Assembly (NCBI RefSeq): GCF_009650765.1
Contig: NZ_CP045740.1
Location: forward strand, 7,974,001 to 8,038,000
DNA length: 64,000 bases
Direction: 5' to 3'
DNA from: Streptomyces sp. SUK 48
GTDB taxonomy: Bacteria > Actinomycetota > Actinomycetes > Streptomycetales > Streptomycetaceae
The position numbers and the translations under genes were made by a program. This document shows positions 258-61,577 of this stretch, piece by piece; within the stretch, counting starts at the first letter, position 1; each line of letters starts with the position of its first letter. The notes under the pieces were generated by a model. It was not told where the DNA came from. It did no database searches and saw only the letters and a program-made list of their open reading frames with translations.

Positions 258-1472
258 ATGACCGAGACCGACATCCGCCACACCGGGTCCGAGGCCCCGG
301 CCTTCCCCCAGGACCGGACCTGCCCGTACCAGCCGCCGCAGGCGTACACGGAATGGCGGGGCGAGAGCCCGCTGACGCGGGTCACGCTGTTCGACGGCCG
401 GCCGGCGTGGCTGATCACCGGGCACGCCGAGGGCCGGGCGCTGCTCGCCGACCCCCGGCTGTCCTCCGACTGGGGCCACCCGGTCTTCCCCGTCGTCGTC
501 CAGCGCACCGAGGACCGCGGCGGCCTCGCGTTCCCGCTGATCGGCGTGGACGACCCGCTGCACGCCCGGCAGCGGCGCATGCTGATTCCCAGCTTCGGCG
601 TCAAGCGCATGAACGCCATCCGGCCCAGCTTGCAGAGCCTGGTCGAACGGCTCCTGGACGACATGCTGGCCAAGGGCCCGGTCGTGGACCTGGTGTCGGC
701 CTTCGCCCTGCCCGTGCCCTCCATGGCGATCTGCGAACTCCTCGGCGTCCCCTACGACGACCACGACTTCTTCGAGGAGTGCTCCCGCGACTTCGTGGGC
801 GCCGCCACCTCCGGGGACGCCGACGCGGCCTTCGCCAAGCTGTACCAGTACCTGCACGGCCTGGTCGCCAAGAAGCAGGCCGAGCCCGGTGACGGCCTCC
901 TGGACGAGCTGATCGCCCGCCAGCTGGAGGAGGGCGGACTCGACCACAACGAGGTGGTCATGATCGCGCTCGTGCTGCTGGTGGCCGGCCACGAGACCAC
1001 CGTCAACGCCATCGCGCTGGGCGCCCTCACCCTCATGCAGCACCCCGAGCAGATCGAGGTGCTGCTGAACGACCCCGCCGCGGTGCCGGGCGTGGTGGAG
1101 GAACTGCTGCGGTTCACCTCCGTCTCCGACTACATGGTCCGGATGGCCAAGGAGGACATCGAGGTCGGCGGCACGACCATCAGGACCGGGGAGGCCGTCC
1201 TGGTCTCCATCACGCTGATGAACCGCGACGCCAAGGCGTACGACGACCCCGACGTCTTCGACGCCCGCCGCAACGCCCGACACCACGTCGGCTTCGGCCA
1301 CGGCATCCACCAGTGCCTGGGACAGAACCTCGCCCGCGCCGAACTGGAGATCGCCCTCGGGGCGCTCTTCACCCGCATCCCCGGCCTGCGGCTGGCCGTA
1401 CCCCTGGACGAGGTGCCGCTGAAGGCCGGGCACGACGCACAGGGCCCGATCGAACTGCCCGTCACCTGGTGA
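258..1472 (+). CDS. Cytochrome P450, CYP105-like polyene hydroxylase
   Basis: A complete 404-residue class I P450. Visible landmarks are the I-helix oxygen-binding motif AGHETT (about 243-248), the K-helix ExxR in EELLR (281-285) and the heme loop FGHGIHQCLG (346-355, Cys353 as ligand). The ATG has a GAAAGG ribosome site seven bases upstream. The length and the PPQAYTEWRG N-terminal region suit CYP105. It lies 70 bp after a paralogous P450 and 44 bp before a small ferredoxin gene, all on one strand, so the three probably form an operon. In the filipin cluster the equivalent enzyme CYP105D6 hydroxylates the side chain at C1'. That exact regiochemistry is inferred from the cluster, not from the sequence. 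Confidence 0.9.
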   Translation: MTETDIRHTGSEAPAFPQDRTCPYQPPQAYTEWRGESPLTRVTLFDGRPAWLITGHAEGRALLADPRLSSDWGHPVFPVVVQRTEDRGGLAFPLIGVDDPLHARQRRMLIPSFGVKRMNAIRPSLQSLVERLLDDMLAKGPVVDLVSAFALPVPSMAICELLGVPYDDHDFFEECSRDFVGAATSGDADAAFAKLYQYLHGLVAKKQAEPGDGLLDELIARQLEEGGLDHNEVVMIALVLLVAGHETTVNAIALGALTLMQHPEQIEVLLNDPAAVPGVVEELLRFTSVSDYMVRMAKEDIEVGGTTIRTGEAVLVSITLMNRDAKAYDDPDVFDARRNARHHVGFGHGIHQCLGQNLARAELEIALGALFTRIPGLRLAVPLDEVPLKAGHDAQGPIELPVTW

Positions 1473-1732: not shown

Positions 1733-4700
1733 CTACGGGGCCGTCCGACCGTAGGGGCCGTGCACGTCGTCGTCACCGAGGTCCAGCAGTTCGCGCAGCA
1801 GCGGGGTCGCCGGCAGCGCCGGGTGGAGGTACACGCGCTCACGGCGCTGCTCCACGGCGGCCAGCAGCGCCCGGAAGGTGCTCCGCGCCTCCTCGGTCCG
1901 CCCGCCGTGCCGCTGCGCCTGGCCCAGCAGACCCAGGTGCAGCGGGTGGCGCAGGCAGGTCCGCGACCGGCCCAGCTCGGCCAGCGAGGAGTGCATCAGG
2001 GCCAGCCCCTCGTCCGGGTCCCCCGAGCGGGCCAGGCCCCACCCCTTGACGACGCCCAGCATCGCCTTCCAGTAGAGCAGCCCGTGCTCGCCCGCGACCC
2101 GCACGCCCTCGTCGCTCGACGCGAGCGCCGTGCGGGTGTCGCCCTCCCAGGCCGCCACCACCCCGTCCACGTAGAGCGCGAACGAGCGGTCGGACGGCCT
2201 GCTGTCGAACTCCGTGAGGCACAGCAGCTCACGCCGGCGCTCCCCGGCCGTCTCCCGGTTCCCGAGCAGCCAGTGCGTGAAGGTGTCGTACGAACGGCAG
2301 GAGACCCGCGGGTCGTGCTGGAAGGTGCGGGCCAGCGCGTGCCCCTCGTCGGCCAGCCGGTCCGCGAGGCCGACGCCGCGCTCCAGTTCGGCGAGCGCCT
2401 GCGGCAGCATGCCGCGCACATGCAGCACGATGCCCTCGCCGTACGCCGCGCCGAGCGCCGCCACGGGCTCCCGGGTCCGGCCGGAGATGTCCCGCAGCAG
2501 CCCGGACAGCTGCCGTGAGGCGTCGTAGCGGCCGGTGACCAGGCGCGACGCGCACAGCGCCCACAGCACCGACGGGTCCTCGGGCGTCTGCGTGGCCGCG
2601 CTGAGGGCGCGACCGCGGGTCAGCGCCGTCTCGGCCTCGCGGTGGCCGTAGCCGCGCGTGGTGGCGAGTATCTGGCCGAGCTGGATGTGCAGCCGCTGCT
2701 CCAGCCGTGCCGTCGCGGCGTCGTCCGGCGGCAGGAAGCCGGTCAGGTGCACCGCGCGGCGCAGCCAGATCTCCGCCTGCTCGTACGCCATGGACCGCTC
2801 GGCGTGCTCCGTGGCGAGCAGCAGCCGGGGCAGGACCTCCGCGGCGGGCAGCGCGCTCTTCGCGTGCCAGCTGTGGTGGGCCACCCGCTCGATCTCCTCG
2901 TCGCCCATCCGCCCCCGGTGCCGGGCGTGCAGCGCCTCGGCGATCCTCGCGTGCAGCCGGTGGCGGTCCGCGCGCGGGAGCTCCTCGACGAGCGCCTCCT
3001 GGACCAGGGCGTGCGCGAAGTGCAGCCGCCCCGGATGGTGCGGGTCCTCCCCGAGCAGACCGGCACGGATGGCCGACTCCAGCCCGGCGAGGACCGGTTC
3101 GCCCGGCGTAGCGGTCCGGTGCAGCAGATCCGTGTCCACCTCGGCGCCGATCACGGCGCACAGCCGCAGCACCCGCAGCACCGGCTCGGGCAGCGCCGCG
3201 AACCGCTGGCGCAGCGCCTCGCGCACCCCGGTGGGAATGTGGGCCAGCAGCACATCGACCGCGTCCGGGCGCTGGAGGTCGCGCGCGTTGCTCACGAGGG
3301 ACAGCAACTGCATCACGAAGTACGGATTGCCCTCGCTGCGCCGGTGCAGCACCTCGACCACCTCGGGGTCGACCCCGGGCCCCGCGTGCGCCTCGACCAG
3401 CGCGCCGACGGCCTGCGGGGACAGCCCGTGCAGCCGCAGCGTGTCCCGCCGGGGCCCGCGCAGCACATCGGAGACCACCCGGCGCAGCGTCGCGTCCGAC
3501 TCCGCCTCGAACTCCCGGGCCGTGAGCACGATGCCGAGCGGACGGCCCTGGCAGCGGGTGCTCAGCAGCCTGAGCAGATCGAGGGAGGCGGCGTCCGCCC
3601 ACTGGAGGTCTTCGAGGAACAGCACGAGCGGGTGGCTTGCGGCCAGGGTGAGCAGCACCTCGCACACCGCGTCATGGGCCAGGAAGCGGGCCTGGCACCA
3701 GTCGGCGGACAGGTCCGGGCCCTCGGTCCGGGACGCCGACCGCTCGGGCATCAGCGGGGCGAGCAGGGCGCCGTAGGGCCGTGTCGCCTCCTGGAAGGCG
3801 TCCGGCCGGGTCGCGGACAGCCGGCGCAGGATCTGGGTCCACAGCCAGTAGGCGGGGACGCCCTCACCGGGGAAGCAGTGACTCCAGACCACCTCCAGCC
3901 GGGAGCCCTCCTCCTGCGCGTCCATGTTCTCCAGCCGCGCGGCGAGTTCGAGCAGCAGCCGGGTCTTGCCGACGCCCGCAGGGCCGAGGACACCGGCCAC
4001 ATGACCATGCCCGACGACCGCGCTCGCGGCGCCGGTCGTCAGCCGGTCCAGTTCCTGGCAGCGACCGGTGAACGGCGACGGGGCGGTCGCCCACTCCGAC
4101 ACGAACTCAGGGAATCCGCCCGCCTCCTGGGCGGCCGCCCGCTCCTCCGCCGGCCGGGCCGCGGGCCGCCGTTCCGTCGGGTGCTGGGGCGCGGCGGCGT
4201 CCGGCGGCACCTCGCCCCGCGCCTCCGCGCGTCCGCCGCCCCCCGCCCCCTCCTTCTGTACGGCGATCACGCCCGCAGCGCCGCCGTCGGCGTGCTCGGA
4301 TCCGGATAACCCCGATAACCCCGCTAAACCCGCTAAGCCCTCGCCGTCCGGTGCCGCCGCCTCACCCGCCTCCTCCGGCACGAGGGGAACACCGGACACC
4401 GCGACGGGCGCGACCCGCTCCGGAGACGATTTTCCGGACGGGGTGCTCGCCCCCGGCTCCTGGCGCAGAATCGCGTTCCTGACCTCGCGCAGCTCGGCCG
4501 CGGTGTCCACCCCGAACTCCTCCACGAGATGGCTGCGCGTGCGCTCGTACACCTCGAGCGCCTCGGCCTGCCGCCCGAGCCGGGACAGGGCCGTCATCAG
4601 ATGGCCGACCAGCCGCTCCCGCGTGGGATGGCGGCGCGCCTCCCCGTCCAGATCCGCGGCGACCTCCTCGGCCGCGCCGAGGGCCAGCCGCGCCTCCGCG

Positions 4701-5251
4701 CAGGACTCCACCGCGGTGAGCCGGATCTGTTCGAGCCGGGCGCACTCGTCGCTGAGCGGCGGATGGCCGTCGAACTCCGCGTAGGGTGAGTCGCGCCACA
4801 GTCCGAGGGCCTCGGTGAACCGGACGTGCGCGGTACGCGGATCGTGCTGCTCCAGCAGCTTGCGTCCGTCCGTCACCAGACGCTCGAAGCGGCAGGCGTC
4901 GACGCGTTCGGGATCGAGTTCCAGGACGTAGCCGGGCGAGCGGTGGCGGAGCACCGAAAGTTGGCCCGTTCCCGCCGTGTCCAGGGTCCGGCGCAGATGG
5001 GACACATGACTCTGGAGGGTCGCGACGGCATGCCGGGGCGCTCCGTCACCCCACAGTTCCTCGACGAGCAGTTCGGTGGGCACCACCCGGCCGAGCCGGA
5101 TGAGCAGCAGGGCGAGCAGGGTGCGCCGGCGCGGCGGCCCGAGTGGGAGGTCGCGCCCGTCGAGCCGCGCCGACATGGGCCCCAGCACCCTGAGGAGGGG
5201 CTCGGCCCGGCCGCTGGTCATGGGCGACGTGTTCACGGGAGGCGTGGACAT
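1733..5251 (-). CDS. SARP-LAL hybrid pathway activator (PimR/PteR type)
   Basis: A regulator of about 1,172 residues. The N-terminal third is a SARP module, an OmpR-like winged helix (RTLLALLLIRLGRVVPTELL region) followed by a BTAD domain. A low-complexity linker (about 265-385) leads to an AAA/NB-ARC-like ATPase with Walker A GPAGVGKT (near 425) and Walker B LVLFLEDLQWAD (near 544), then a long helical repeat region. This SARP-plus-ATPase build and length match PimR and PteR, the top-level activators of pimaricin and filipin synthesis. The start at 5251 has a GGGGA ribosome site; the open frame extends to 5335. Four TTA codons at 4307-4336 imply bldA control. The divergent PAS-LuxR gene is its expected target. 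Confidence 0.88.
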   Translation of the reverse strand: MSTPPVNTSPMTSGRAEPLLRVLGPMSARLDGRDLPLGPPRRRTLLALLLIRLGRVVPTELLVEELWGDGAPRHAVATLQSHVSHLRRTLDTAGTGQLSVLRHRSPGYVLELDPERVDACRFERLVTDGRKLLEQHDPRTAHVRFTEALGLWRDSPYAEFDGHPPLSDECARLEQIRLTAVESCAEARLALGAAEEVAADLDGEARRHPTRERLVGHLMTALSRLGRQAEALEVYERTRSHLVEEFGVDTAAELREVRNAILRQEPGASTPSGKSSPERVAPVAVSGVPLVPEEAGEAAAPDGEGLAGLAGLSGLSGSEHADGGAAGVIAVQKEGAGGGGRAEARGEVPPDAAAPQHPTERRPAARPAEERAAAQEAGGFPEFVSEWATAPSPFTGRCQELDRLTTGAASAVVGHGHVAGVLGPAGVGKTRLLLELAARLENMDAQEEGSRLEVVWSHCFPGEGVPAYWLWTQILRRLSATRPDAFQEATRPYGALLAPLMPERSASRTEGPDLSADWCQARFLAHDAVCEVLLTLAASHPLVLFLEDLQWADAASLDLLRLLSTRCQGRPLGIVLTAREFEAESDATLRRVVSDVLRGPRRDTLRLHGLSPQAVGALVEAHAGPGVDPEVVEVLHRRSEGNPYFVMQLLSLVSNARDLQRPDAVDVLLAHIPTGVREALRQRFAALPEPVLRVLRLCAVIGAEVDTDLLHRTATPGEPVLAGLESAIRAGLLGEDPHHPGRLHFAHALVQEALVEELPRADRHRLHARIAEALHARHRGRMGDEEIERVAHHSWHAKSALPAAEVLPRLLLATEHAERSMAYEQAEIWLRRAVHLTGFLPPDDAATARLEQRLHIQLGQILATTRGYGHREAETALTRGRALSAATQTPEDPSVLWALCASRLVTGRYDASRQLSGLLRDISGRTREPVAALGAAYGEGIVLHVRGMLPQALAELERGVGLADRLADEGHALARTFQHDPRVSCRSYDTFTHWLLGNRETAGERRRELLCLTEFDSRPSDRSFALYVDGVVAAWEGDTRTALASSDEGVRVAGEHGLLYWKAMLGVVKGWGLARSGDPDEGLALMHSSLAELGRSRTCLRHPLHLGLLGQAQRHGGRTEEARSTFRALLAAVEQRRERVYLHPALPATPLLRELLDLGDDDVHGPYGRTAP
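4305..4340 (-). repeat. 9-bp tandem repeat carrying four TTA codons
   Basis: Four 9-bp units in the linker of the SARP-LAL gene read, on the coding strand, Gly-Leu-Ala, Gly-Leu-Ala, Gly-Leu-Ser, Gly-Leu-Ser. Every leucine is the rare TTA codon (plus-strand TAA at 4307, 4316, 4325 and 4334). In Streptomyces TTA is read by the bldA tRNA, which is abundant only late in growth. The A/T-rich triplets stand out against the GC-rich surroundings, which suggests recent slippage expansion of one unit. Confidence 0.9.
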
Positions 5252-5375
5252 GACGGTCCCCGATCTCTTACGGGTACGGCTGGTTGACGGACGGCTTCGA
5301 GCAGGGGCTGTCGCAGGGCGTCCGCTACCGATCATGACATAGCGAAAGCGCCTGCTGAGCTGGCGATCCGTCGAT

Positions 5376-5481
5376 TGGCAAGAAAGCAGAAGGTGTTGGG
5401 CAAGGATTTCGACAAGGGGTCCGGAAAGCGACGGCAGCGGGCGGCAAGGGGGCGTCAGCGACTCGACCAGGACCCCGCAAG
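5376..5481 (+). promoter_or_regulatory. Array of CGGCAAG-like heptads (putative SARP operator)
   Basis: The gap between the divergent SARP-LAL and PAS-LuxR genes (5252-5616) holds same-strand heptads. These are TGGCAAG (5376), GGGCAAG (5398), CGACAAG (5410), CGGAAAG (5422), CGGCAGC (5432), CGGCAAG (5442) and CCGCAAG (5475). The central four are 10-12 bp apart, one helical turn, as for SARP sites. From memory of the literature, PimR binds CGGCAAG direct repeats with about 4-bp spacers ahead of pimM; the exact word occurs here in the equivalent position. The rest of the 365-bp gap shows no gene. No match to the PAS-LuxR box (GGGAWWTCCC core) was seen. Confidence 0.55.
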
Positions 5482-5616: not shown

Positions 5617-6231
5617 TTGCTGAGTCCAGCACCTGCTGCTCCGGGCCTGTGCGTGGCAAGCCTCGATAAAACACTGGCCATCCAGCAGGCGAACCAGGAG
5701 TTCTTCCGTCAGTTCAACTGCTCGTCCGAGGACATATGCGGCCGCGATTTTCGCGACGTGGTCCACCCCAGCGTGCAGCAGCCGCTGGTGCGCCAATTCT
5801 CCAATTTGCTGGAAGGCAAGCACCAGCGATTCGTCACCCCCGTCATCGCCGTGGGGCCCGGCGAGGAGGCCGCCTTCACGGTCCCCCTCACCGCGGTCGC
5901 GGTGCGCGGGGGAGTCCCCGACACGACCGCGATCCTGGTCATGATGCCCACCGCCGGCGACGGTGAGGGGGCACGCGTGGTGACCAGGCGCAAGAAGATC
6001 CTCTCCGCGATGGACGCCCGGATCCTGGAGGGCATCGCCGCCGGGGTCTCCACCATCCCCCTCGCGGCGAGCCTCTACCTCAGCCGGCAGGGCGTCGAGT
6101 ACCACGTGACCTGCCTGCTGCGGAAGCTCAAGGTCCCCAACCGCGCCGCACTGGTCTCCCGCGCCTACTCCATGGGCGTGCTGAAGGTCGGTGCCTGGCC
6201 CCCCGAGGTCGTCGAGGACTTCGTGAAGTGA
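5617..6231 (+). CDS. PAS-LuxR transcriptional activator (PimM/PteF family)
   Basis: A short regulator with an N-terminal PAS fold (SLDKTLAIQQANQEFFRQF opening) and a C-terminal LuxR/GerE helix-turn-helix (RILEGIAAGVSTIPLAASLY, then VEYHVTCLLRKL). These are conserved polyene-pathway activators that switch on the PKS, P450 and cholesterol-oxidase genes directly. The TTG at 5617 has a clear AGGGAG ribosome site and gives 204 residues. The GTG at 5653 gives 192, the usual family length, but has no obvious ribosome site. Its promoter region contains SARP-type heptads, so a SARP-LAL to PAS-LuxR to structural-gene cascade is likely. Confidence 0.9.
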   Translation: MLSPAPAAPGLCVASLDKTLAIQQANQEFFRQFNCSSEDICGRDFRDVVHPSVQQPLVRQFSNLLEGKHQRFVTPVIAVGPGEEAAFTVPLTAVAVRGGVPDTTAILVMMPTAGDGEGARVVTRRKKILSAMDARILEGIAAGVSTIPLAASLYLSRQGVEYHVTCLLRKLKVPNRAALVSRAYSMGVLKVGAWPPEVVEDFVK

Positions 6232-8040
<1,809 letters not shown>

Positions 8041-8150: not shown

Positions 8151-8918
8151 GTGAACTCCCCGCTCACCGAGGCCAACGGCCTGTGGATCCGCAGGTTCCA
8201 TCCGCGCCCCGACGCCCGCGTCCGGCTGGTCTGCCTGCCCCACGCGGGCGGCTCCGCCAGCTTCTTCCTCCCCGTCTCCCGGTCCCTGCCCGAGGACGTG
8301 GACGTGCTCTGCGTGCAGTACCCCGGCCGCCAGGACCGCCGCGCCGAACCGCTCGTGGACTCCGTACCGGCGCTCGCCGACCAGGTCCACGAGGCGCTGC
8401 TGCCCTGGACCGACCGGCCCCTCGCCCTGTTCGGGCACAGCATGGGCGCCTCCCTCGCCTACGAGGTCGCCCGGCGCCTGGAGCGGGACCAGGACCTCGT
8501 GCCCGCCGCCCTCATCGCCTCCGGCCGCCGCGCGCCCTGCGCACACCGCGCCGAGACCGTCCACCTGCGCGACGACGACGGCCTGGTCGCCGAGATGCGC
8601 GCCCTCAGCGGCACCAACCCCCAGCTGCTGGGCGACGAGGAGATCCTGCGCATGATCCTCCCGGCCATCCGGGCGGACTACCGCGCGGCCGAGACGTACA
8701 CGTGGGAACCCGGACCGCCCCTGCGCTGCCCGGTGACCTGCCTCGTCGGCGACGACGACCCGAAGGTCACCGTGGAGGAGGCCGCCGCCTGGTCCGAACA
8801 CACCGAAGGCCCCTTCACCCTGAAGGTCTTCCCCGGCGGCCACTTCTTCCTCGCCGAACACCAGCCGGAGATCATCCGCCTCATCACCTCCCGGCTGGAG
8901 TCGCCCGTACGGCCATGA
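8151..8918 (+). CDS. Type II thioesterase of the polyketide cluster
   Basis: A 255-residue alpha/beta hydrolase of the GrsT/TEII family. The nucleophile elbow GHSMGASLAYEVA lies near 99, the acidic residue is probably in the LVGDDDPKVT stretch, and the catalytic histidine is in FPGGHFFL. TEII enzymes edit polyketide synthases by removing aberrant acyl groups from carrier proteins. The GTG start follows a GAAAGGGA ribosome site. It sits directly after the cholesterol oxidase gene on the same strand, as PteH does relative to PteG, and is probably the last clear cluster member in this direction. Confidence 0.92.
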   Translation: MNSPLTEANGLWIRRFHPRPDARVRLVCLPHAGGSASFFLPVSRSLPEDVDVLCVQYPGRQDRRAEPLVDSVPALADQVHEALLPWTDRPLALFGHSMGASLAYEVARRLERDQDLVPAALIASGRRAPCAHRAETVHLRDDDGLVAEMRALSGTNPQLLGDEEILRMILPAIRADYRAAETYTWEPGPPLRCPVTCLVGDDDPKVTVEEAAAWSEHTEGPFTLKVFPGGHFFLAEHQPEIIRLITSRLESPVRP

Positions 8919-17369: not shown

Positions 17370-17381
17370 GCGGGATGCTCC

Positions 17382-17430
17382 GTAGGTCGTAGGTCGTAGG
17401 TCGTGGGTCGTGGGTCGTGGGTCGTGGGTC
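17382..17430 (-). repeat. Seven-copy heptanucleotide tandem repeat
   Basis: Seven tandem units in the 90-bp gap between the GH85 and GH38 genes: three GTAGGTC then four GTGGGTC (plus strand), followed by a degenerate unit. It lies immediately upstream of the GH38 ribosome site. Copy number could vary by slippage and alter leader length, mRNA structure or spacing. Confidence 0.9.
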
Positions 17431-17459
17431 GGCGGGTCAGCGGGTGGATCGGCGGGCGC

Positions 17460-34865: not shown

Positions 34866-35608
34866 CGGCTCCGTCCGCCGGGCCACCGGCCGTCCTGTAC
34901 CCGTGCGTGATCACCCACCGACGCCGCGCACCCCAGCGCTACGCCCTGCGGCACCGCACGTACCTGTGGCTGGTCGACCCGGACCGCCTGCCCGAACTGC
35001 CGCGCCCACTGAGGCCGTTGGCCCACTTCAGCGCCCGTGACCACTTCACGGGACGGGCTCCGTCGATCAGGGCCGCGCTCGACGGCTTCCTGGACGAGCA
35101 CGGCATCGACCTGGAGGGCGGCCGGGTGCTGATGCTCGCGCACGCCCGGATCCTCGGCCATGTCTTCAACCCGCTCACCCTGTACTGGTGTTACGGCCCC
35201 CAGGGCACCGTGCGCTGCGTGGTGGCCGAGGTCCACAACACCTACGGCGGGCGCCACGCCTACCTGCTGCACCCCGATGCGACCGGAACCGCCACCGTCG
35301 CCAAGGACTTCTACGTGTCGCCCTTCCACCCGGTCGACGGCCACTACGAGATGCGGGTCCCGCCGCCCGGCGAGCTCCTGCGCCTGTCGATACGGCTGCA
35401 CCGGCCCGGCGGCCCGCCCTTCACGGCCGCGGTCCGCGGCACCCGCCGCACGGCCACGGTCCCGGAACTGCTCCGCCTGTCCCTGCGCCACCCCTGGTCG
35501 ACGCTCGCGGTGTCGGCCGCCATCCGCTTCCACGGTATCCGCCTGTTCCTGCGCGGCCTGCCGGTGCAGCCGCGCCCGGGCCGCCGTACCCCGGAGAACG
35601 CGTCATGA
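34862..35608 (+). CDS. DUF1365 protein (Rv0448c type)
   Basis: A 248-residue protein: YPCVITHRRRAPQRYALRHR, RDHFTGRAPSIRAALDGFL, the signature ILGHVFNPLTLYWCYG, and KDFYVSPFHPVDGHYEMR. DUF1365 proteins are always found with the FAD oxidoreductase and the cyclopropane-type methyltransferase and are thought to act in making unusual membrane fatty acids. The reaction is not known. The GTG at 34862 overlaps the previous stop by 4 bp; GTG 34859 is equally possible. Confidence 0.9.
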   Translation: MTAPSAGPPAVLYPCVITHRRRAPQRYALRHRTYLWLVDPDRLPELPRPLRPLAHFSARDHFTGRAPSIRAALDGFLDEHGIDLEGGRVLMLAHARILGHVFNPLTLYWCYGPQGTVRCVVAEVHNTYGGRHAYLLHPDATGTATVAKDFYVSPFHPVDGHYEMRVPPPGELLRLSIRLHRPGGPPFTAAVRGTRRTATVPELLRLSLRHPWSTLAVSAAIRFHGIRLFLRGLPVQPRPGRRTPENAS

Positions 35609-36891
35609 CCACGGTCGAAGACCGCCCCGCCGCCCGCCACCGAGCGAACGGCCCCCGAACCGCCCCCGTCGACGCCGACCGCTGGCCCGACGTGGCCGCC
35701 GTACCGCGGGCGTCCTGGCCGGTGCGCGCCGTCACCGCGGCCGTACTGGAACGCGCCCTGCGGCGACTGCCCCTGCGCGTACGGTTCGCCGACGGCACCA
35801 CCCTCGGCCTGGGCGGACCACTGATAGCGGTGCACGACCACCGGGCGTTCCACTCCCGCGTCGGCACCAGCGGGCTCATCGGCTTCGGCGAGTCCTACAT
35901 GGCGGGGGAGTGGGACGCCCCGGACCTGGTCGGCGCGCTCACCGTCCTCGCCGCCCACGCGGCCGACCTGATCCCGCCCGGACTACAGCGGCTGCGGGGC
36001 CTGTGGACGCAGCGCCAGCCGCACACGCAGCGCAACACCCCGGACGGGTCGCGGACCAACATCAGCCGTCACTACGACCTCTCCAACGACCTGTTCGCGC
36101 TGTTCCTGGACGAGACGCTCAGCTATTCCTCCGCCGTCTTCCGCGGCTTCCCCGCCGACCGCTCGCTGCTGGCCGCCGCCCAGCAGCGCAAGGTCGACCG
36201 GCTGCTGGACCTGGCCGAGGTGCGCGAGGGCACCCGGCTGCTGGAGATCGGCACCGGCTGGGGCGAACTGGCGCTGCGCGCCGCCGCCCGGGGCGCGCAC
36301 GTCACCTCGCTCACCCTGTCGACGGAACAGCGGGAGCTGGCGCTGGCACGGGTACGCGAGGCCGGGTACGAGGACCGCGTCTCGATCGAACTGTGCGACT
36401 ACCGCGAGGCACACGGCACCTACGACGCGGTCGTCAGCGTGGAGATGATCGAGGCCGTCGGCGCGGAGTTCTGGCCCGTCTACTTCCAAACCCTCGACGA
36501 GCGCCTGGCGCCCGGCGGCCGGCTGGCCCTCCAGGCGATCACCATGCCGCACGAGCGGATGCTGGCCAGCCGCGGCACCCACACCTGGATCCAGAAGTAC
36601 GTCTTCCCCGGCGGCCTCATCCCCTCGACGACGGCCGTGGAGGAGGCGGTTCGCGACCACACCGGTCTCGCGCCGACCGCCAGGGACGGTTTCGGCGCGC
36701 ACTACGCCGAGACCCTGCGCCTGTGGCGGGAGCGGTTCACGGACCGCGCCGACGATGTCGAAGCGCTCGGCTTCGACGAGACCTTCCGCCGCTTGTGGAC
36801 CTTCTACCTGGCCTATTCCGAGGCGGGTTTCCGCTCCGGATACCTCGATGTCCAGCAGTACCTGTTCACGAAGGAGGACCCGGCCCGATGA
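35605..36891 (+). CDS. Cyclopropane-fatty-acyl-phospholipid synthase family methyltransferase 1
   Basis: A protein of 428 residues. The N-terminal lipid-binding part (about 1-140) is followed by a SAM domain: ISRHYDLSNDLFALFLDETL, LLEIGTGWGELALRAAARGA, SLTLSTEQRELALARVREAG, and VVSVEMIEAVGAEFWP in place of the usual GEHVG loop. The late segment YLAYSEAGFRSGYLDVQQ is typical of the family. It matches the CFA-synthase-like gene ufaA1 (Rv0447c) of the sigK block. It modifies the double bond of membrane acyl chains using SAM. ATGA overlaps couple it to both neighbours. Confidence 0.9.
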   Translation: MTTVEDRPAARHRANGPRTAPVDADRWPDVAAVPRASWPVRAVTAAVLERALRRLPLRVRFADGTTLGLGGPLIAVHDHRAFHSRVGTSGLIGFGESYMAGEWDAPDLVGALTVLAAHAADLIPPGLQRLRGLWTQRQPHTQRNTPDGSRTNISRHYDLSNDLFALFLDETLSYSSAVFRGFPADRSLLAAAQQRKVDRLLDLAEVREGTRLLEIGTGWGELALRAAARGAHVTSLTLSTEQRELALARVREAGYEDRVSIELCDYREAHGTYDAVVSVEMIEAVGAEFWPVYFQTLDERLAPGGRLALQAITMPHERMLASRGTHTWIQKYVFPGGLIPSTTAVEEAVRDHTGLAPTARDGFGAHYAETLRLWRERFTDRADDVEALGFDETFRRLWTFYLAYSEAGFRSGYLDVQQYLFTKEDPAR

Positions 36892-44954: not shown

Positions 44955-45854
<900 letters not shown>

Positions 45855-52525: not shown

Positions 52526-55447
52526 TCACCGGCGACCGTCCGCGCCGCCCGCCTCCTGGACCCGCCGGCGCAGTTCGCCACGGCTGCGCAGGCCCAGCTT
52601 CACGAACACGCCGCGCAGGTGGTACTCGATCGTCTTCACGCTGAGCGTCAGCTCGTCGGCGATCTCCCGGTTGGTGCAGCCGAGCCCCACCAGGCGGGCC
52701 ACCTCGCGCTCGCGTCCGGTGAGCAGTCGGTCCAGAGCCGATGTGTCCGGGCGTTCGGGCACGCGGGCCCGGCGCTCGGCCCGGCACTCCTCCAGGAACG
52801 GCCGCGCGCCCAGCCGGGTGAACACGTCTTCGGCGCTGTCGAAGTACGCGCGCGCCGCTCCCGCCGCGCCGAGTGCCGCCGACACCCGCCCGCGGGAGAT
52901 CTCCAGCAGCCCGCGCACCAGCGGGATGTCCCGGCCGGGCCCGAGCAGTCCGACCGCCTCGGTGTACCGGCCGAGCGCGGCCTCGTGCGCGCCCGCCGCC
53001 TCCGCCGTACGACCCCGCAGCCAGGCGTCGGCGACCCGCAGGTGCCAGTTGGCCGCGGCGCCCGTGGCCGTCAGCTCCGCCACGGCCGCCCGCGCGAGAT
53101 CGGCCAGACCGCACTCGACGAGCGACTCGGCGAAAAAGGGCAGCCAGCTCGTGGAGACGATCCGCACACGCTCGGAGTGCGCGGAACGCTCGGCCAGCAT
53201 CTGGAGGGCGTCCACCACCCCGCGGTGGTCGCCCCGCGCCCGCGCCCCCATCGCCCGGGCCATGGCCGTGTGGTACTGCGGCCCCCCGAAGTCCAGCGGC
53301 TGGGCCAGTCCTCGGGCCCGGCGCAGACCCGCCTCGGCCGCTCCGGCGTCGCCCCGGAACGCGTCGAGGACCGAGCGCAGGGACCACAGGGCGGGCGGGT
53401 CGAAACAGCGCCCCTGCTCGTCGTCGAGCGCCGTCTCCACTTCCCGTACCGCCCGGTTCCAGTCGCCGCCCAGCAGATGACACATGGCGAGGTGGACCGA
53501 GGCGCTCGTCCCGAGGAGCCGTGCGGCGCCGGGGCGGCGGCGGGCCGTCACCATGGTCAGATCGGTCGTCCCGGACGAGAGTTGCGCGTCCGCGAGCCGG
53601 AGTATGCCCCGGACGGTCAGGGCCGGGAGGTCCTCCTCACCGATCCGGTCCGCGTCCTCGGGCAGGCCGGCCAGGAGATCCAGACCGGCCCGGGGGCCGT
53701 CCCGCAGCGCCGTACCGTAGGCGGCCAGAGCCCGTGCCGCCTGCCGGACACCCGGGGGTACGACGACGCAGGGACCCTGCGCGCAGACCTCCAGGAGGCC
53801 ACCGGACGGCGGGCCGGCGTCGGCGGCTTCATCCGGCGCGGGCCGGTCCATGGCCGGACCGGTTCCCCGGTGGCGTCCGGCGGGACCGTACGGGCATGCC
53901 TCGCCCTCCGGGGGAGCCGGGCTGAGGGCCTGGTCGGCGTGGAGCCGGGTGGCTTCCCCCTGGCCCAGGATGGCGTGCACCAGGGCCAGTTCGGTGCGCA
54001 CGACCGCCCGTTGGCCGGGATGAGCCCCCCGCAGGGACTGCCCCGCCTGGTCCAGCAGCCGCCGTGCCGAGGTGAGACGGCCGGCGGCGAACTCGGTCAG
54101 GCCCAGCGCCTCGTCCCGCCACGGGCACGGCCGGCGGGCGGCCACCGCCTCCCCGTGCCGGGTCAGCTCCCCGTCGGCGCCGGCCCAGAAGAGGAGCCGC
54201 ACCGCGCCGTAGAACAGATGGTCGGTCCGGTGGTCGTCGGCGTGCGAGAGGGACGCCGCCGACAGCAGCGTCCGTGCCGCGTGCAGGAGCCCGCCCTCGG
54301 CGAGTTCGTGGGCCGCGGTCTCCAGGAGGTCGGCGGACAGGCGGAGGTCGACGGTCTCGGCGGCCGCCACCTTGTGCGCCAGACCCCGCCGCTCGTCGAC
54401 CGCGCCGGCCGCGGCGACGTGCAGCGCGCGCCGCCGCGCGGCCGGCAGCGTGTCGTACAGCGCGTCGCGGAACACGCCGTGCCGGATCGCGACGGTGGGC
54501 ACGTGGACATCCGTCCGCGTGATGAACTCCTCGTGGACCAGCGGGTCCAGCGCCGAGGCGCAGTCGGGGGCGCCCAGGACGGTACTCAGGGTCGGCACGG
54601 TCGCGGAACCGCCGAGCACGGCCAGCGCCTCCAGGGCCGCCACACCTTCGGCGGGCACGCCCTTCAGCTGACGCCGTACCACGGAGGCGGGCAGAGCGGG
54701 CCAGGGCGGGCCGCCGGGCCGCGCGGTGGTGTGGCCGTCGAGCAGGCTCCTGAGATACAGCGGGTGGCCGCCGGACCGCAGCACCAGGCGCCGGGTGAGC
54801 ACGTCGTCGGCGAGATCGCCGAGCGCGGTGGCCACCAGGGCCCCCGCCTCCGCTTCCCCCAGTCCGGCCAGGTCGACGTGGGTCAGCGGGGCCACCGTGT
54901 GCAGGGCCCGCAGGACCTCCTCGTCCCAGCCGCGCGTGTGCCGCGCGGCCAGCACGAGGCACAGGGGACCGCCCTCGCGCGCGGCCTCGAACAACACCTT
55001 CAGCGAAGCGCCGTCGGCCCATTGGGCGTCGTCCACGAACAGGGCCCAGGGGGCCGCCGCCGGCATGTCAAGGAACTCCCGCAGCGCACGCGGCCCCGGG
55101 GCGGCGGCGGGCTTCTTCCGCGCCGGTGCGCTCGGCTCTCCGGCCGGGGAGCGGCCCGGCACCCGCACCGCGGCCTGACGCAGCAGGCGGGACAGGCAGT
55201 CGCCGTCGGAAGGCGCCAAAGACGGTGTCGCCGCGCTCTCCAGCACGGAGAAGCCGCTCAGGCCGGCCAGGAACCGGCGCACGAGGGCCGTCTTTCCGAC
55301 GCCGGGCGGCCCCTGCACGAGCACGACCGTGGCCGTACCCGCGCGGGCGGAGTCGGCGGCGGCGCGCAGCGCCCGCGACTCGCTCAGGCGGCCGGTGAAC
55401 ATCCCCACCCTTTCCGCCGGGGCCGGGCGTCTGGGTATCCAGGCCAT
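52526..55447 (-). CDS. LAL-type (large ATP-binding LuxR) transcriptional regulator
   Basis: A protein of 973 residues. The N-terminal AAA-like ATPase has Walker A VQGPPGVGKTALVRRFLAG (near 44-62) and Walker B WALFVDDAQWADGAS (near 133-147). A long helical, TPR-like middle follows. The C-terminal GerE HTH is LTGREREVARLVGLGCTNRE, then IADELTLSVKTIEYHLRGVF, near 905-950. LALs activate antibiotic or sugar-use genes. It is divergent from the block of secreted proteins starting at 56076, which it might control, though 630 bp separate them. The start at 55447 has GGAG eight bases upstream. Confidence 0.92.
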   Translation of the reverse strand: MAWIPRRPAPAERVGMFTGRLSESRALRAAADSARAGTATVVLVQGPPGVGKTALVRRFLAGLSGFSVLESAATPSLAPSDGDCLSRLLRQAAVRVPGRSPAGEPSAPARKKPAAAPGPRALREFLDMPAAAPWALFVDDAQWADGASLKVLFEAAREGGPLCLVLAARHTRGWDEEVLRALHTVAPLTHVDLAGLGEAEAGALVATALGDLADDVLTRRLVLRSGGHPLYLRSLLDGHTTARPGGPPWPALPASVVRRQLKGVPAEGVAALEALAVLGGSATVPTLSTVLGAPDCASALDPLVHEEFITRTDVHVPTVAIRHGVFRDALYDTLPAARRRALHVAAAGAVDERRGLAHKVAAAETVDLRLSADLLETAAHELAEGGLLHAARTLLSAASLSHADDHRTDHLFYGAVRLLFWAGADGELTRHGEAVAARRPCPWRDEALGLTEFAAGRLTSARRLLDQAGQSLRGAHPGQRAVVRTELALVHAILGQGEATRLHADQALSPAPPEGEACPYGPAGRHRGTGPAMDRPAPDEAADAGPPSGGLLEVCAQGPCVVVPPGVRQAARALAAYGTALRDGPRAGLDLLAGLPEDADRIGEEDLPALTVRGILRLADAQLSSGTTDLTMVTARRRPGAARLLGTSASVHLAMCHLLGGDWNRAVREVETALDDEQGRCFDPPALWSLRSVLDAFRGDAGAAEAGLRRARGLAQPLDFGGPQYHTAMARAMGARARGDHRGVVDALQMLAERSAHSERVRIVSTSWLPFFAESLVECGLADLARAAVAELTATGAAANWHLRVADAWLRGRTAEAAGAHEAALGRYTEAVGLLGPGRDIPLVRGLLEISRGRVSAALGAAGAARAYFDSAEDVFTRLGARPFLEECRAERRARVPERPDTSALDRLLTGREREVARLVGLGCTNREIADELTLSVKTIEYHLRGVFVKLGLRSRGELRRRVQEAGGADGRR

Positions 55448-59605: not shown

Positions 59606-60360
59606 TCAGGCGAGCGAGAACTTCTGGGCGGCCGAGCCGTTGCAGTCCCAGATCTGGAGGCGGGTGCCGTTCGCGGTGGCGCCCGAGGGCGAGTCGATGC
59701 AGCGGCCGGTGGTCGGATTGGACATCGAGCCGTCGGCGTTCGCCACCCAGTTCTGGTAGCCGCCGCCGTTGCAGTTGGCCAGCTGGAGCTTCGTGCCGGC
59801 CGCGTTCACCCCGCCCGCGATGTCCAGGCACTTGCCCAGCGTCCGCAGGGTCTGGCCGTTCCAGGTCCACTTCTGGTCGAGCGACGTGGCTTGCTGGCAG
59901 TCCCAGAGCTGGACCGCGGTGCCGTCGCCGCCGGTGTCGTCACCGGCCACGTCCACGCACTTGCCGCCCGGTCCGTAGACCGGGGTGCCGATGGCGAACT
60001 GCTGCGCGCCGGAGCCGTTGCAGTCCCAGATCTGGAGGCGGGTGCCGTTCGCGGTGGCACCCGAGGGGGAGTCGACGCACCGGCCGCTGGTCGGGTTCCG
60101 CAGTGAGCCGTCGGGCTGCCGCACCCACGACTGGTAGCCGCCGCTGTTGCAGGTGGCGAGCTGCAGTTTCGTACCGGCCGCGCTGTTGCCGCCGGCGATG
60201 TCCAGGCACTTGCCGAGGGTCTGGAGGGTCTGGCCGTTCCAGGTCCAGTGCTGGTCCTTGGCGCCCGACTGGCAGTCCCACAGCTGGACCGCGGTGCCGT
60301 CGCCGCCGGTGTCGTCACCGGCCACGTCCACGCACTTGCCGCCGGGTCCGGTGATCGTCT
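59606..60360 (-). repeat. Tandem duplication of the lectin domain (about 375-bp unit)
   Basis: The two lectin units of the GH16 protein are offset by 375 bp. A run of about 62 bases is identical between 59907-59968 and 60282-60343, with other long near-identical blocks. This implies recent duplication or gene conversion within the gene. Confidence 0.85.
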
Positions 60361-61333
60361 GACCGCTCACCGAACCGCCGCCGCCCCCGGAGCCGGGCCC
60401 CTTGTTGTAGACGGACACCGAGTCGATGACCAGCTTGCCGCCGGAGACCGTGGACGCGTTCGGGCCCCCGCCGAAGGCGTCCGGGAAGCCGCCGCCCATC
60501 GCCAGGTCGTAGATGATGAAGAACGGGTGGTCGACCGCGTCGGACCAGGTCGTGGCGTCCACCTGGTTGGCGTTGATCGTGTAGAAGTTGTTCCCGTCGA
60601 GGTAGAACCTGATCTGCTCCGGCGACACCGAGCGGTCGATCTCCGCCGCGTAGTCGTGGAAGCCGGTCTGGCAGCCCGGACAGGCGCGCTCACCCGAGCC
60701 GATGCCGGTCGACTCGTTGCACGGACCGCCCGGGTTCACCCCGCAGTGCAGGGTGCTGAAGACGGAGCTGCGGCCGTTGATGTCCTCCATGATGTCGACC
60801 TCGCCGGACTTCGGCCAGGTCACCCCGGAGCGCAGCGGCGCGCCGAGCATCCAGAACGCCGGCCAGTAGCCCGCGCCGTTGGCGGTGGTGACATCGGGCT
60901 GCTGGAGGACGGACTCGATGCGTACGACACCGCCCGCCGGGGCGCCGAAGCCCGCCGACTGGGTCTCCACGCGCCCCGAGGTCCATCCGCCGCGCGGGTC
61001 GCTGCCCGAGTGCAGGGCCTGGAGCACCAGATGGCCCTGACCGTCGTAGTAGACGTTCGAGGTGCTGTTGGTCATCGTCTCGATCTCACCGGTGCCGAAG
61101 CTGCTGCCCGGCCCGGTGTCGTACTTCCACAGGCTCTGATCGATGCCGGTGCCGGACGCACCGTTGAAGTCGTCGCTCCAGGTGAGCGTGAAGCCGGACG
61201 GTGCCGGGGGCACCGCCGCCTGGACGTTCGGTGCCGCGGTGACGGTGGCCGCCACCGTCGCCACGACGACGGGCAGGAGAGAGAGCGCTCTCTTCCATCC
61301 GCCGCGGCGTGCCCTTGCGAGGGGTAGTTGCAT
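59606..61333 (-). CDS. Secreted GH16 beta-glucanase with two tandem ricin-B lectin domains
   Basis: A protein of 575 residues from an ATG with GGAGG eight bases upstream. The Sec signal RALSLLPVVVATVAATVTAA precedes the GH16 jelly roll: LTWSDDFNGASGTGIDQSLW, YWPAFWMLG, and catalytic GEVDIMEDIN (ExDxxE, near 185-194). A glycine linker (GPGSGGGGGSVSG) then leads to two near-identical lectin units (about 325-450 and 451-575), each with GKCVDVAGDD, LWDCQ and QxW motifs. The substrate is probably laminarin-like or mixed-linkage glucan. A LacI-type palindrome sits inside the signal-peptide coding region. Confidence 0.95.
   Translation of the reverse strand: MQLPLARARRGGWKRALSLLPVVVATVAATVTAAPNVQAAVPPAPSGFTLTWSDDFNGASGTGIDQSLWKYDTGPGSSFGTGEIETMTNSTSNVYYDGQGHLVLQALHSGSDPRGGWTSGRVETQSAGFGAPAGGVVRIESVLQQPDVTTANGAGYWPAFWMLGAPLRSGVTWPKSGEVDIMEDINGRSSVFSTLHCGVNPGGPCNESTGIGSGERACPGCQTGFHDYAAEIDRSVSPEQIRFYLDGNNFYTINANQVDATTWSDAVDHPFFIIYDLAMGGGFPDAFGGGPNASTVSGGKLVIDSVSVYNKGPGSGGGGGSVSGQTITGPGGKCVDVAGDDTGGDGTAVQLWDCQSGAKDQHWTWNGQTLQTLGKCLDIAGGNSAAGTKLQLATCNSGGYQSWVRQPDGSLRNPTSGRCVDSPSGATANGTRLQIWDCNGSGAQQFAIGTPVYGPGGKCVDVAGDDTGGDGTAVQLWDCQQATSLDQKWTWNGQTLRTLGKCLDIAGGVNAAGTKLQLANCNGGGYQNWVANADGSMSNPTTGRCIDSPSGATANGTRLQIWDCNGSAAQKFSLA
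61280..61293. promoter_or_regulatory. Intragenic LacI-type palindrome in the GH16 gene
   Basis: The 14-bp perfect palindrome AGAGAGCGCTCTCT is 40-54 bases inside the coding sequence. Its GAGCGCTC core equals that of the Streptomyces CebR cellobiose-repressor box (TGGGAGCGCTCCCA). A downstream roadblock operator for a glucan-sensing LacI repressor is likely but unproven. Confidence 0.55.
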
Positions 61334-61577
61334 AGGTCTGGCCTCCGAGGAAGGACATGATCGCGTCTGTTCGCTACGCCGCCTGTGACGGTCTCCCGGG
61401 CTCTCGCCCCCGGGCGGCGGATGCGTCGTCAACTCTGATGGAGGTGCGCGGTGTTGAAGCATGTGGAGTTCTGTGCGAGGCAGACGGTATTGGCCCATAC
61501 CATTACCGTCAAGGCTGCGCAGCAGACCTGACGGCGTCGGGGAACCGGTCCGTCGCACCGCCGTCGGGTGTGCGCGG

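Follow-up and report, generated by a model that had tools for sequence, protein, structure and literature searches.

Four TTA codons in a 9-bp tandem repeat within a PimR/PteR-type activator gene of Streptomyces sp. SUK 48

In Streptomyces, an activator whose mRNA contains UUA is finished only with the UUA-reading tRNA (bldA control), and one TTA codon is thought to be sufficient. One activator gene of Streptomyces sp. SUK 48 contains four such codons within 30 bp, which raises the question of how they came to stand together and whether their number matters. An earlier note on this DNA had read the arrangement as fitting selection on timing. We consider it probable that this PimR/PteR-type activator has an ordinary gate of the bldA type, combined with a TTA array that is unusual and was amplified by slippage. 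"The window" designates the whole stretch analyzed, 64,000 nucleotides of contig NZ_CP045740.1 (positions 7,974,001 to 8,038,000). Papers designated by PMC number were available as partial texts, and statements taken from them refer to those texts.

The activator gene and its TTA array

The activator gene and its neighbors in the window are as follows.

258-1472, plus strand: cytochrome P450 (Pfam), presumably of the polyene cluster, judging from its position
1733-5335, minus strand: PimR/PteR/PemR-type SARP-LAL pathway activator (Pfam domains and homologues)
5376-5404, plus strand: putative PimR-type operator-like site, TGGCAAG aaag CAGAAGG tgtt GGGCAAG (three heptamers, 4-nt spacers)
5432-5448, plus strand: second pair of heptamers, CGGCAGC ggg CGGCAAG (3-nt spacer), resembling the weak secondary PimR site in the available text
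5617-6231, plus strand: PimM/PteF-type PAS-LuxR regulator (PAS_4 and GerE), divergent from the activator
6541-8040, plus strand: GMC oxidoreductase (Pfam), which we take to be PimE/cholesterol oxidase-like
8151-8918, plus strand: thioesterase (Pfam), presumably of the polyene cluster, again from its position

The activator contains Trans_reg_C (residues 68-138), BTAD (145-290) and AAA_16 (421-600) domains in the same order as PimR, and its homologues include genes of S. natalensis and S. filipinensis and ScnRI of S. chattanoogensis. The ORF as listed encodes 1200 aa. The true start is probably Met29, which is conserved among homologues and gives the 1172 aa of the protein version P0001. The sequence traits of a PimR/PteR-type SARP-LAL locus were found: Trans_reg_C and BTAD followed by an AAA half, a divergent PAS-LuxR gene (which contains no TTA codons) and a heptamer operator-like sequence between the two genes. 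The operator-like site at 5376-5404 is close to the S. natalensis PimR footprint TGGCAAGaaagCGGCAGGtgttCGGCAAG, with identical spacers (PMC3367932). PimR of S. natalensis (pimaricin) is like the window gene, as far as the partial text describes it, in domain order, divergent PAS-LuxR gene, three-heptamer operator and spacers. We predict that this PimR/PteR-type gene encodes the activator for a polyene cluster of the filipin/pentamycin type. Very long ORFs to the left of the window (C1:7902772-7926366 and C1:7961509-7971627) are taken to be the cluster polyketide synthases on the basis of their length and N-termini. TTA codons occur in both (codons 4483 and 7787 of one, codon 374 of the other), which agrees with the report, in the text available, of pem genes with TTA codons in S. 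rochei. Another candidate regulator in the window, a large LAL-type LuxR protein (AAA_16 and GerE), is encoded at 52526-55447 on the minus strand.

The array itself comprises three nested features.

4079-4462, minus strand: interdomain linker, approximately residues 292-419, predicted to be disordered (AlphaFold2)
4305-4340, minus strand: 9-bp tandem repeat, four units (TRF: period 9, 4.0 copies, 88% matches)
4334-4336, 4325-4327, 4316-4318 and 4307-4309, minus strand: four TTA codons within a 30-bp span

The codons are in frame as residues 334, 337, 340 and 343 of the activator, one per repeat unit, and the array reads GGC TTA GCG GGT TTA GCG GGG TTA TCG GGG TTA TCC GGA (G L A G L A G L S G L S G). 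Sequence, translation and TRF all confirm the earlier description of four TTA codons in 30 bp, one per 9-bp unit, in a SARP-LAL activator. The units are imperfect, with GCG, TCG or TCC after TTA and GGT, GGG or GGA as Gly codons, and the 1200-codon ORF contains no further TTA outside the array. Positions 4068-4784 are also open on the plus strand; this reading was rejected because homology, Pfam domains and codon usage favor the minus strand.

TTA is rare in the window, as had been supposed. A simple rule (G+C by codon position) called 52 genes, and 5 of their 17,325 codons are TTA, a window-level figure; four of the five are the array. The fifth is codon 2 of an ORF with an uncertain start, listed at 35188-36891 on the plus strand and encoding a cyclopropane-synthase-like protein (CMAS). 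The expected bldA-type tRNA was also located, in that the genome contains one match to the bldA query, a tRNA-Leu(UAA) gene at C1:4923420-4923506 with 91% identity. The pattern TTA-N6-TTA-N6-TTA occurs in the 8.34-Mb chromosome only at the array, as two overlapping matches, whereas the reversed control pattern gave 4 matches. Treated as independent codons, the array is far beyond chance. Because the array is a tandem repeat, one TTA plus duplications, and not four independent events, accounts for it. The 9-bp unit is a multiple of 3, so slippage can alter codon number and not the frame, which sets the array apart from phase-variable on/off repeat loci.

The array lies between BTAD (to residue 290) and AAA_16 (from 421), outside the Pfam domains found. 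For AlphaFold2, P0001 was folded with an alignment of 52 sequences (mean pLDDT 75.5, pTM 0.50). Residues 265-348 and 350-390 (293-376 and 378-418 of the listed ORF) had pLDDT below 50 and no secondary structure, and the array occupies residues 306-315 in P0001 numbering. The model therefore bears out, at the level of prediction, the claim that an array in the linker between BTAD and the ATPase domain disturbs no domain.

Effects at the level of nucleic acid were weighed as well. A G-quadruplex motif, GGGCTTAGCGGGTTTAGCGGGGTTATCGGGG, whose four G-runs are separated by TTA-bearing loops, is present on the coding strand and mRNA at 4310-4340 and might stall ribosomes or polymerase. We regard this explanation as exceedingly improbable, as the corresponding 72-bp stretch of S. 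murinus and S. griseofuscus contains no match, 27 such motifs occur in the window, and the ordinary RNA fold (a model without quadruplexes) was no stronger than the folds of shuffled sequences (z = +1.0). An RNA hairpin at the array was rejected on the same value. A SARP-binding site within the array was rejected because the array has a period of 9 bp, whereas SARP operators have one of 11 bp; the sequence that resembles an operator stands at 5376-5404.

Two near-perfect short arrays are present between called genes of the window, at 45733-45771 (GGTGC x 7.8) and 17381-17431 (CGTGGGT x 7.3), and a Ricin-type lectin-domain protein encoded at 59606-61558 (minus strand) contains a 378-bp tandem duplication (82% matches).

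Unit number in relatives and origin of the repeat

The nearest relatives among those with DNA compared, S. murinus NRRL B-2286 (L001) and S. griseofuscus DSM 40191 (L011), form one clade with the window (support 100/100). Each contains three TTA units, and, unlike the window, both share another TTA at aligned residue 328. At the protein level, the closest protein, from Streptomyces sp. HF10 (P0002, 91%), has three Leu units and one S. murinus representative (P0003) has a single unit. Unit number therefore ranges from one to four (4, 3 and 3 by DNA; 3 and 1 by protein), in agreement with the suggestion that copy number varies and as would be expected of a variable-number repeat. The total number of TTA codons per gene is four in the window, five in L001 and four in L011, at differing positions.

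At the aligned sites, gaps aside, sister lineages mostly have TCC, TCG or TTC (Ser/Phe). Some of their linkers contain 9-bp repeats that lack TTA, encoding (GSD)n in L002, L003, L006 and L031 and (FEG)n in P0006 and P0007. The earlier note had conceded that a regulatory meaning would be unlikely if most homologues carried the same repeat with non-TTA leucine codons; among the other homologues compared, neither the TTA repeat nor the same repeat with other Leu codons was seen. In the S. griseofuscus genome (L011), the sole match to TTA-N6-TTA-N6-TTA was its own copy of the activator gene. One match each was found in S. hygroscopicus (L010) and S. sclerotialus (L002), away from the activator gene, and none in the genomes of S. 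natalensis (L012) and S. filipinensis (L017). From this pattern, the array looks like a slippage product in a hypervariable linker. In the simplest account, one linker unit gained TTA, perhaps from TTC, and would then have been copied.

Activators of the same cluster kind are PemR (S. rochei 7434AN4, pentamycin) and PteR (S. avermitilis, filipin). Both pemR and pteR are reported with a TTA codon, and bldA control of pentamycin has been proposed (PMC6662830). For pemR the available text gives "a TTA codon" with no mention of a tandem array, in contrast to the window gene. A close relationship is reported between S. rochei 7434AN4 and S. griseofuscus DSM 40191 (PMC8443760); the homologue of the latter has three TTA units plus one TTA, one unit fewer than the window gene. 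In the S. natalensis homologue (L012), unlike in the window gene, the Leu repeat is absent and the two TTA codons lie elsewhere. A plasmid search for homologues returned only distant SARP matches among the 20 listed of 87.

TTA codons in the activator family

TTA codons were counted in 35 homologues after aligned residue 45 (L031 is split in two ORFs, and only the first, 898 aa, was counted). The control set comprised the neighboring genes at these loci, 239 in all, delimited by a simple rule and not taken from annotation. The counts, uncorrected for kinship, were 45 of 39,498 codons in the homologues and 16 of 77,960 in the neighbors, an excess of 5.6-fold per codon and 3.9-fold per Leu codon. 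When L001 and L011 were removed, the excess was still approximately 4.7-fold per codon (36/37,155). The corresponding ratios per codon were 2.0 for CTA, 1.2 for CTT, 0.9 for TTG and 1.24 for all A-ending codons; because CTA is itself enriched approximately 2-fold, base composition may account for part of the TTA excess.

After aligned residue 45, TTA was present in 22 of the 35 homologues and two or more were present in 12, including L001 and L011. With N-terminal TTA codons included, 25 of 36 sequences (counting the window) contain TTA, as do 13 of 13 in the filipin/pimaricin clade. TTA is absent from the other 11 of 36, and bldA control is thus not universal in the family. The sites vary by lineage: aligned residue 1128 is TTA in L004, L005, L010 and L012 and CTG in the window, L001 and L011. 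In L007, L008, L012, L017, L089, L091, L092 and L093, TTA stands within about 20 codons after the probable start, at differing positions.

A linker TTA occurs at aligned residue 392 in L002, L003, L006 and L031 (all four subclade members compared) and in a similar place in L093, and the distant homologue L117 has one lone linker TTA. These last loci belong to a set of 30 further loci, of which 7 gave no linker (L096, L101, L106, L107, L108, L110 and L111) and two (L109 and L112) look misread. In the 35 homologues, 12 of 3,980 linker codons were TTA versus 33 of 35,518 codons elsewhere (P 0.0013). A linker-specific enrichment was rejected: 8 of the 12 came from L001 and L011 and 4 from one subclade, equivalent to about three events, and we make no claim of enrichment.

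Retention was assessed in close pairs after aligned residue 45, with TTA codons set apart from the other A/T-ending codons. Values were summed over four of six pairs; window-L001 (3/3 versus 44/71) and window-L010 (0/0 versus 34/66) were excluded so that the window entered the sum only once. In the four pairs, TTA was kept at 12 of 14 sites and other A/T-ending codons at 310 of 420, with no clear difference; counted with over-extended ORF 5' ends and TTA among the A/T-ending codons, the values were 12/14 and 373/489. The window-L011 pair alone gave 3/3 versus 44/71. From these sequence comparisons, TTA in the gene as a whole looks non-neutral, being over-represented and shifting in position. 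Taken together, the gene-level excess and the lack of clear codon-level retention indicate that the gene tends to carry TTA, with no sign that the array is selectively held. They also suggest a way for a TTA gate to shift its place inside a gene: the family retains its TTA content as sites turn over.

The view of the earlier note is that the number of TTA codons is itself selected. Four UUA codons in series would give a sharper or less leaky gate: each codon waits for the rare tRNA, or is misread without it, so leak-through multiplies down the series, translation runs to the end only when tRNA supply is high, and slippage tunes the threshold. The over-representation of TTA in the family fits this view, as does the Leu codon of the repeat unit, which is TTA in 10 of 10 cases (four in the window, three in L001, three in L011) even though third bases of the neighboring Gly and Ser codons differ, and totals of 4, 5 and 4 are found in the three genes despite differing positions. 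However, the units may be too recent for TTA to have been lost, an S. murinus relative is down to one unit (at the protein level), and TTA was not clearly better kept in either the window-L011 pair or the four summed pairs. The claim of selection on timing for the array was not borne out by these retention values, nor by a hypervariable linker in which sister lineages grow 9-bp repeats without TTA, and genes with several TTA codons are common in the family (12 of 35). We consider selected number unlikely, though less so than the other alternatives.

At the other extreme, the array could be a chance by-product of slippage in a gene for which UUA supply is not limiting. The linker is disordered and hypervariable, TRF found other 9-bp tandem arrays in the window, and TTA shows no clear excess retention. 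This neutral explanation is nonetheless improbable, since it is opposed by a family over-representation of TTA beyond composition and by the established bldA biology of TTA-bearing activators.

Translation through the array and similar motifs in other genomes

In the bldA-type gate that we favor, and that most of the family would share, translation of the activator mRNA would reach its end only in the presence of the UUA-reading tRNA. The completed activator would then switch on the divergent PimM-type gene. Slippage of 9 bp in the disordered, hypervariable linker may have copied a TTA-bearing Gly-Leu-Ala/Ser unit to three and then four. The first TTA would do most of the gating, and the extra copies would contribute little or tighten it modestly. 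The four codons may have a dose effect, as a series of four could reduce leak-through or prolong the stall. In work by Trepanier from 2002, mistranslation of ccaR was reported for a bldA mutant, so it is conceivable that extra TTA codons guard against leakage.

The regulators AdpA, ActII-ORF4, RedZ and CcaR depend on bldA tRNA through UUA, and for their genes the available texts mention no tandem array, unlike the window gene (PMC11836424, PMC2635970). Three TTA codons each are described in peuR (codons 13, 52 and 74; PMC10786969) and epn/tmcA (PMC8988807), both read as control by UUA supply; those of peuR are far apart and not in a repeat, in contrast to the 9-bp repeat of the window. In the open-access literature, with subscription journals mostly outside this search, we found no report of a tandem TTA array in Streptomyces and no study on the effect of UUA number or spacing beyond one. 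The array is an unusual arrangement of a well-known device, as TTA is common in the family and tandem stacking is unusual. For adpA, TTA and TTG alleles reportedly gave the same AdpA timing, and lucensomycin output fell when TTA was changed to CTC (PMC7875965); recoding thus need not follow the prediction of a plain gate.

The position of the array suggests a further explanation. Scarcity of the UUA tRNA might halt ribosomes at the border between the SARP and ATPase halves. The resulting SARP-only fragment would sit on the operator or receive a tmRNA tag, and full-length activator would be made only later. The array does lie in the disordered stretch between BTAD and AAA_16, other homologues have a linker TTA at or near aligned residue 392, in PimR the SARP domain can bind the target region by itself (PMC3367932), and competition between tmRNA and bldA tRNA at UUA has been proposed (PMC2635970). 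Against this, 33 of the 45 family TTA codons are outside the linker, the window gene shows no sign of a shortened product, and any fragment would probably be degraded. The text available from the same source (PMC2635970) describes few tagging changes without bldA and no evidence of tagged proteins from UUA-containing mRNAs. A domain-border pause is, in our estimation, very improbable.

A wider form of these ideas, in which the unit number of the UUA array is tunable by slippage and sets the need for bldA tRNA, possibly along with the amount of SARP-only fragment, before the polyene is switched on, is rather doubtful. The relatives with one to four units are a ready-made natural series for testing UUA number. 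This series lies in a filipin/pentamycin-type antifungal cluster, close to S. griseofuscus DSM 40191, which has already been engineered (PMC8443760).

The array motif GGNTTANCNGGNTTANCNGG was found in 35 of 392 sampled Streptomyces genomes. The coding frame was judged for 31 of the 35, taking the first match at each locus; G066, G177, G280 and G408, along with some other places, were left out. Codon usage favored a frame on the opposite strand in 26 of 31 (G310 being a near tie and G064 weak). In 3, no frame was clear or another one was favored; the TTA frame was best in two, the window and, weakly, G084. Among 61 relatives, G047 (another genus) likewise scored highest in the TTA frame, where the motif stands at the edge of an open frame. 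The opposite strand of most such motifs, including that of G084, encodes Gly-Asn-Pro or Gly-Lys-Pro repeats, and antisense repeats of the Gly-Asn-Pro type are consequently a trap for TTA-array searches. Tandem GGGTTACCN (L048, L067, L068, L084, L085 and others) is likewise mostly antisense to Gly-Asn-Pro-type, collagen-like repeats.
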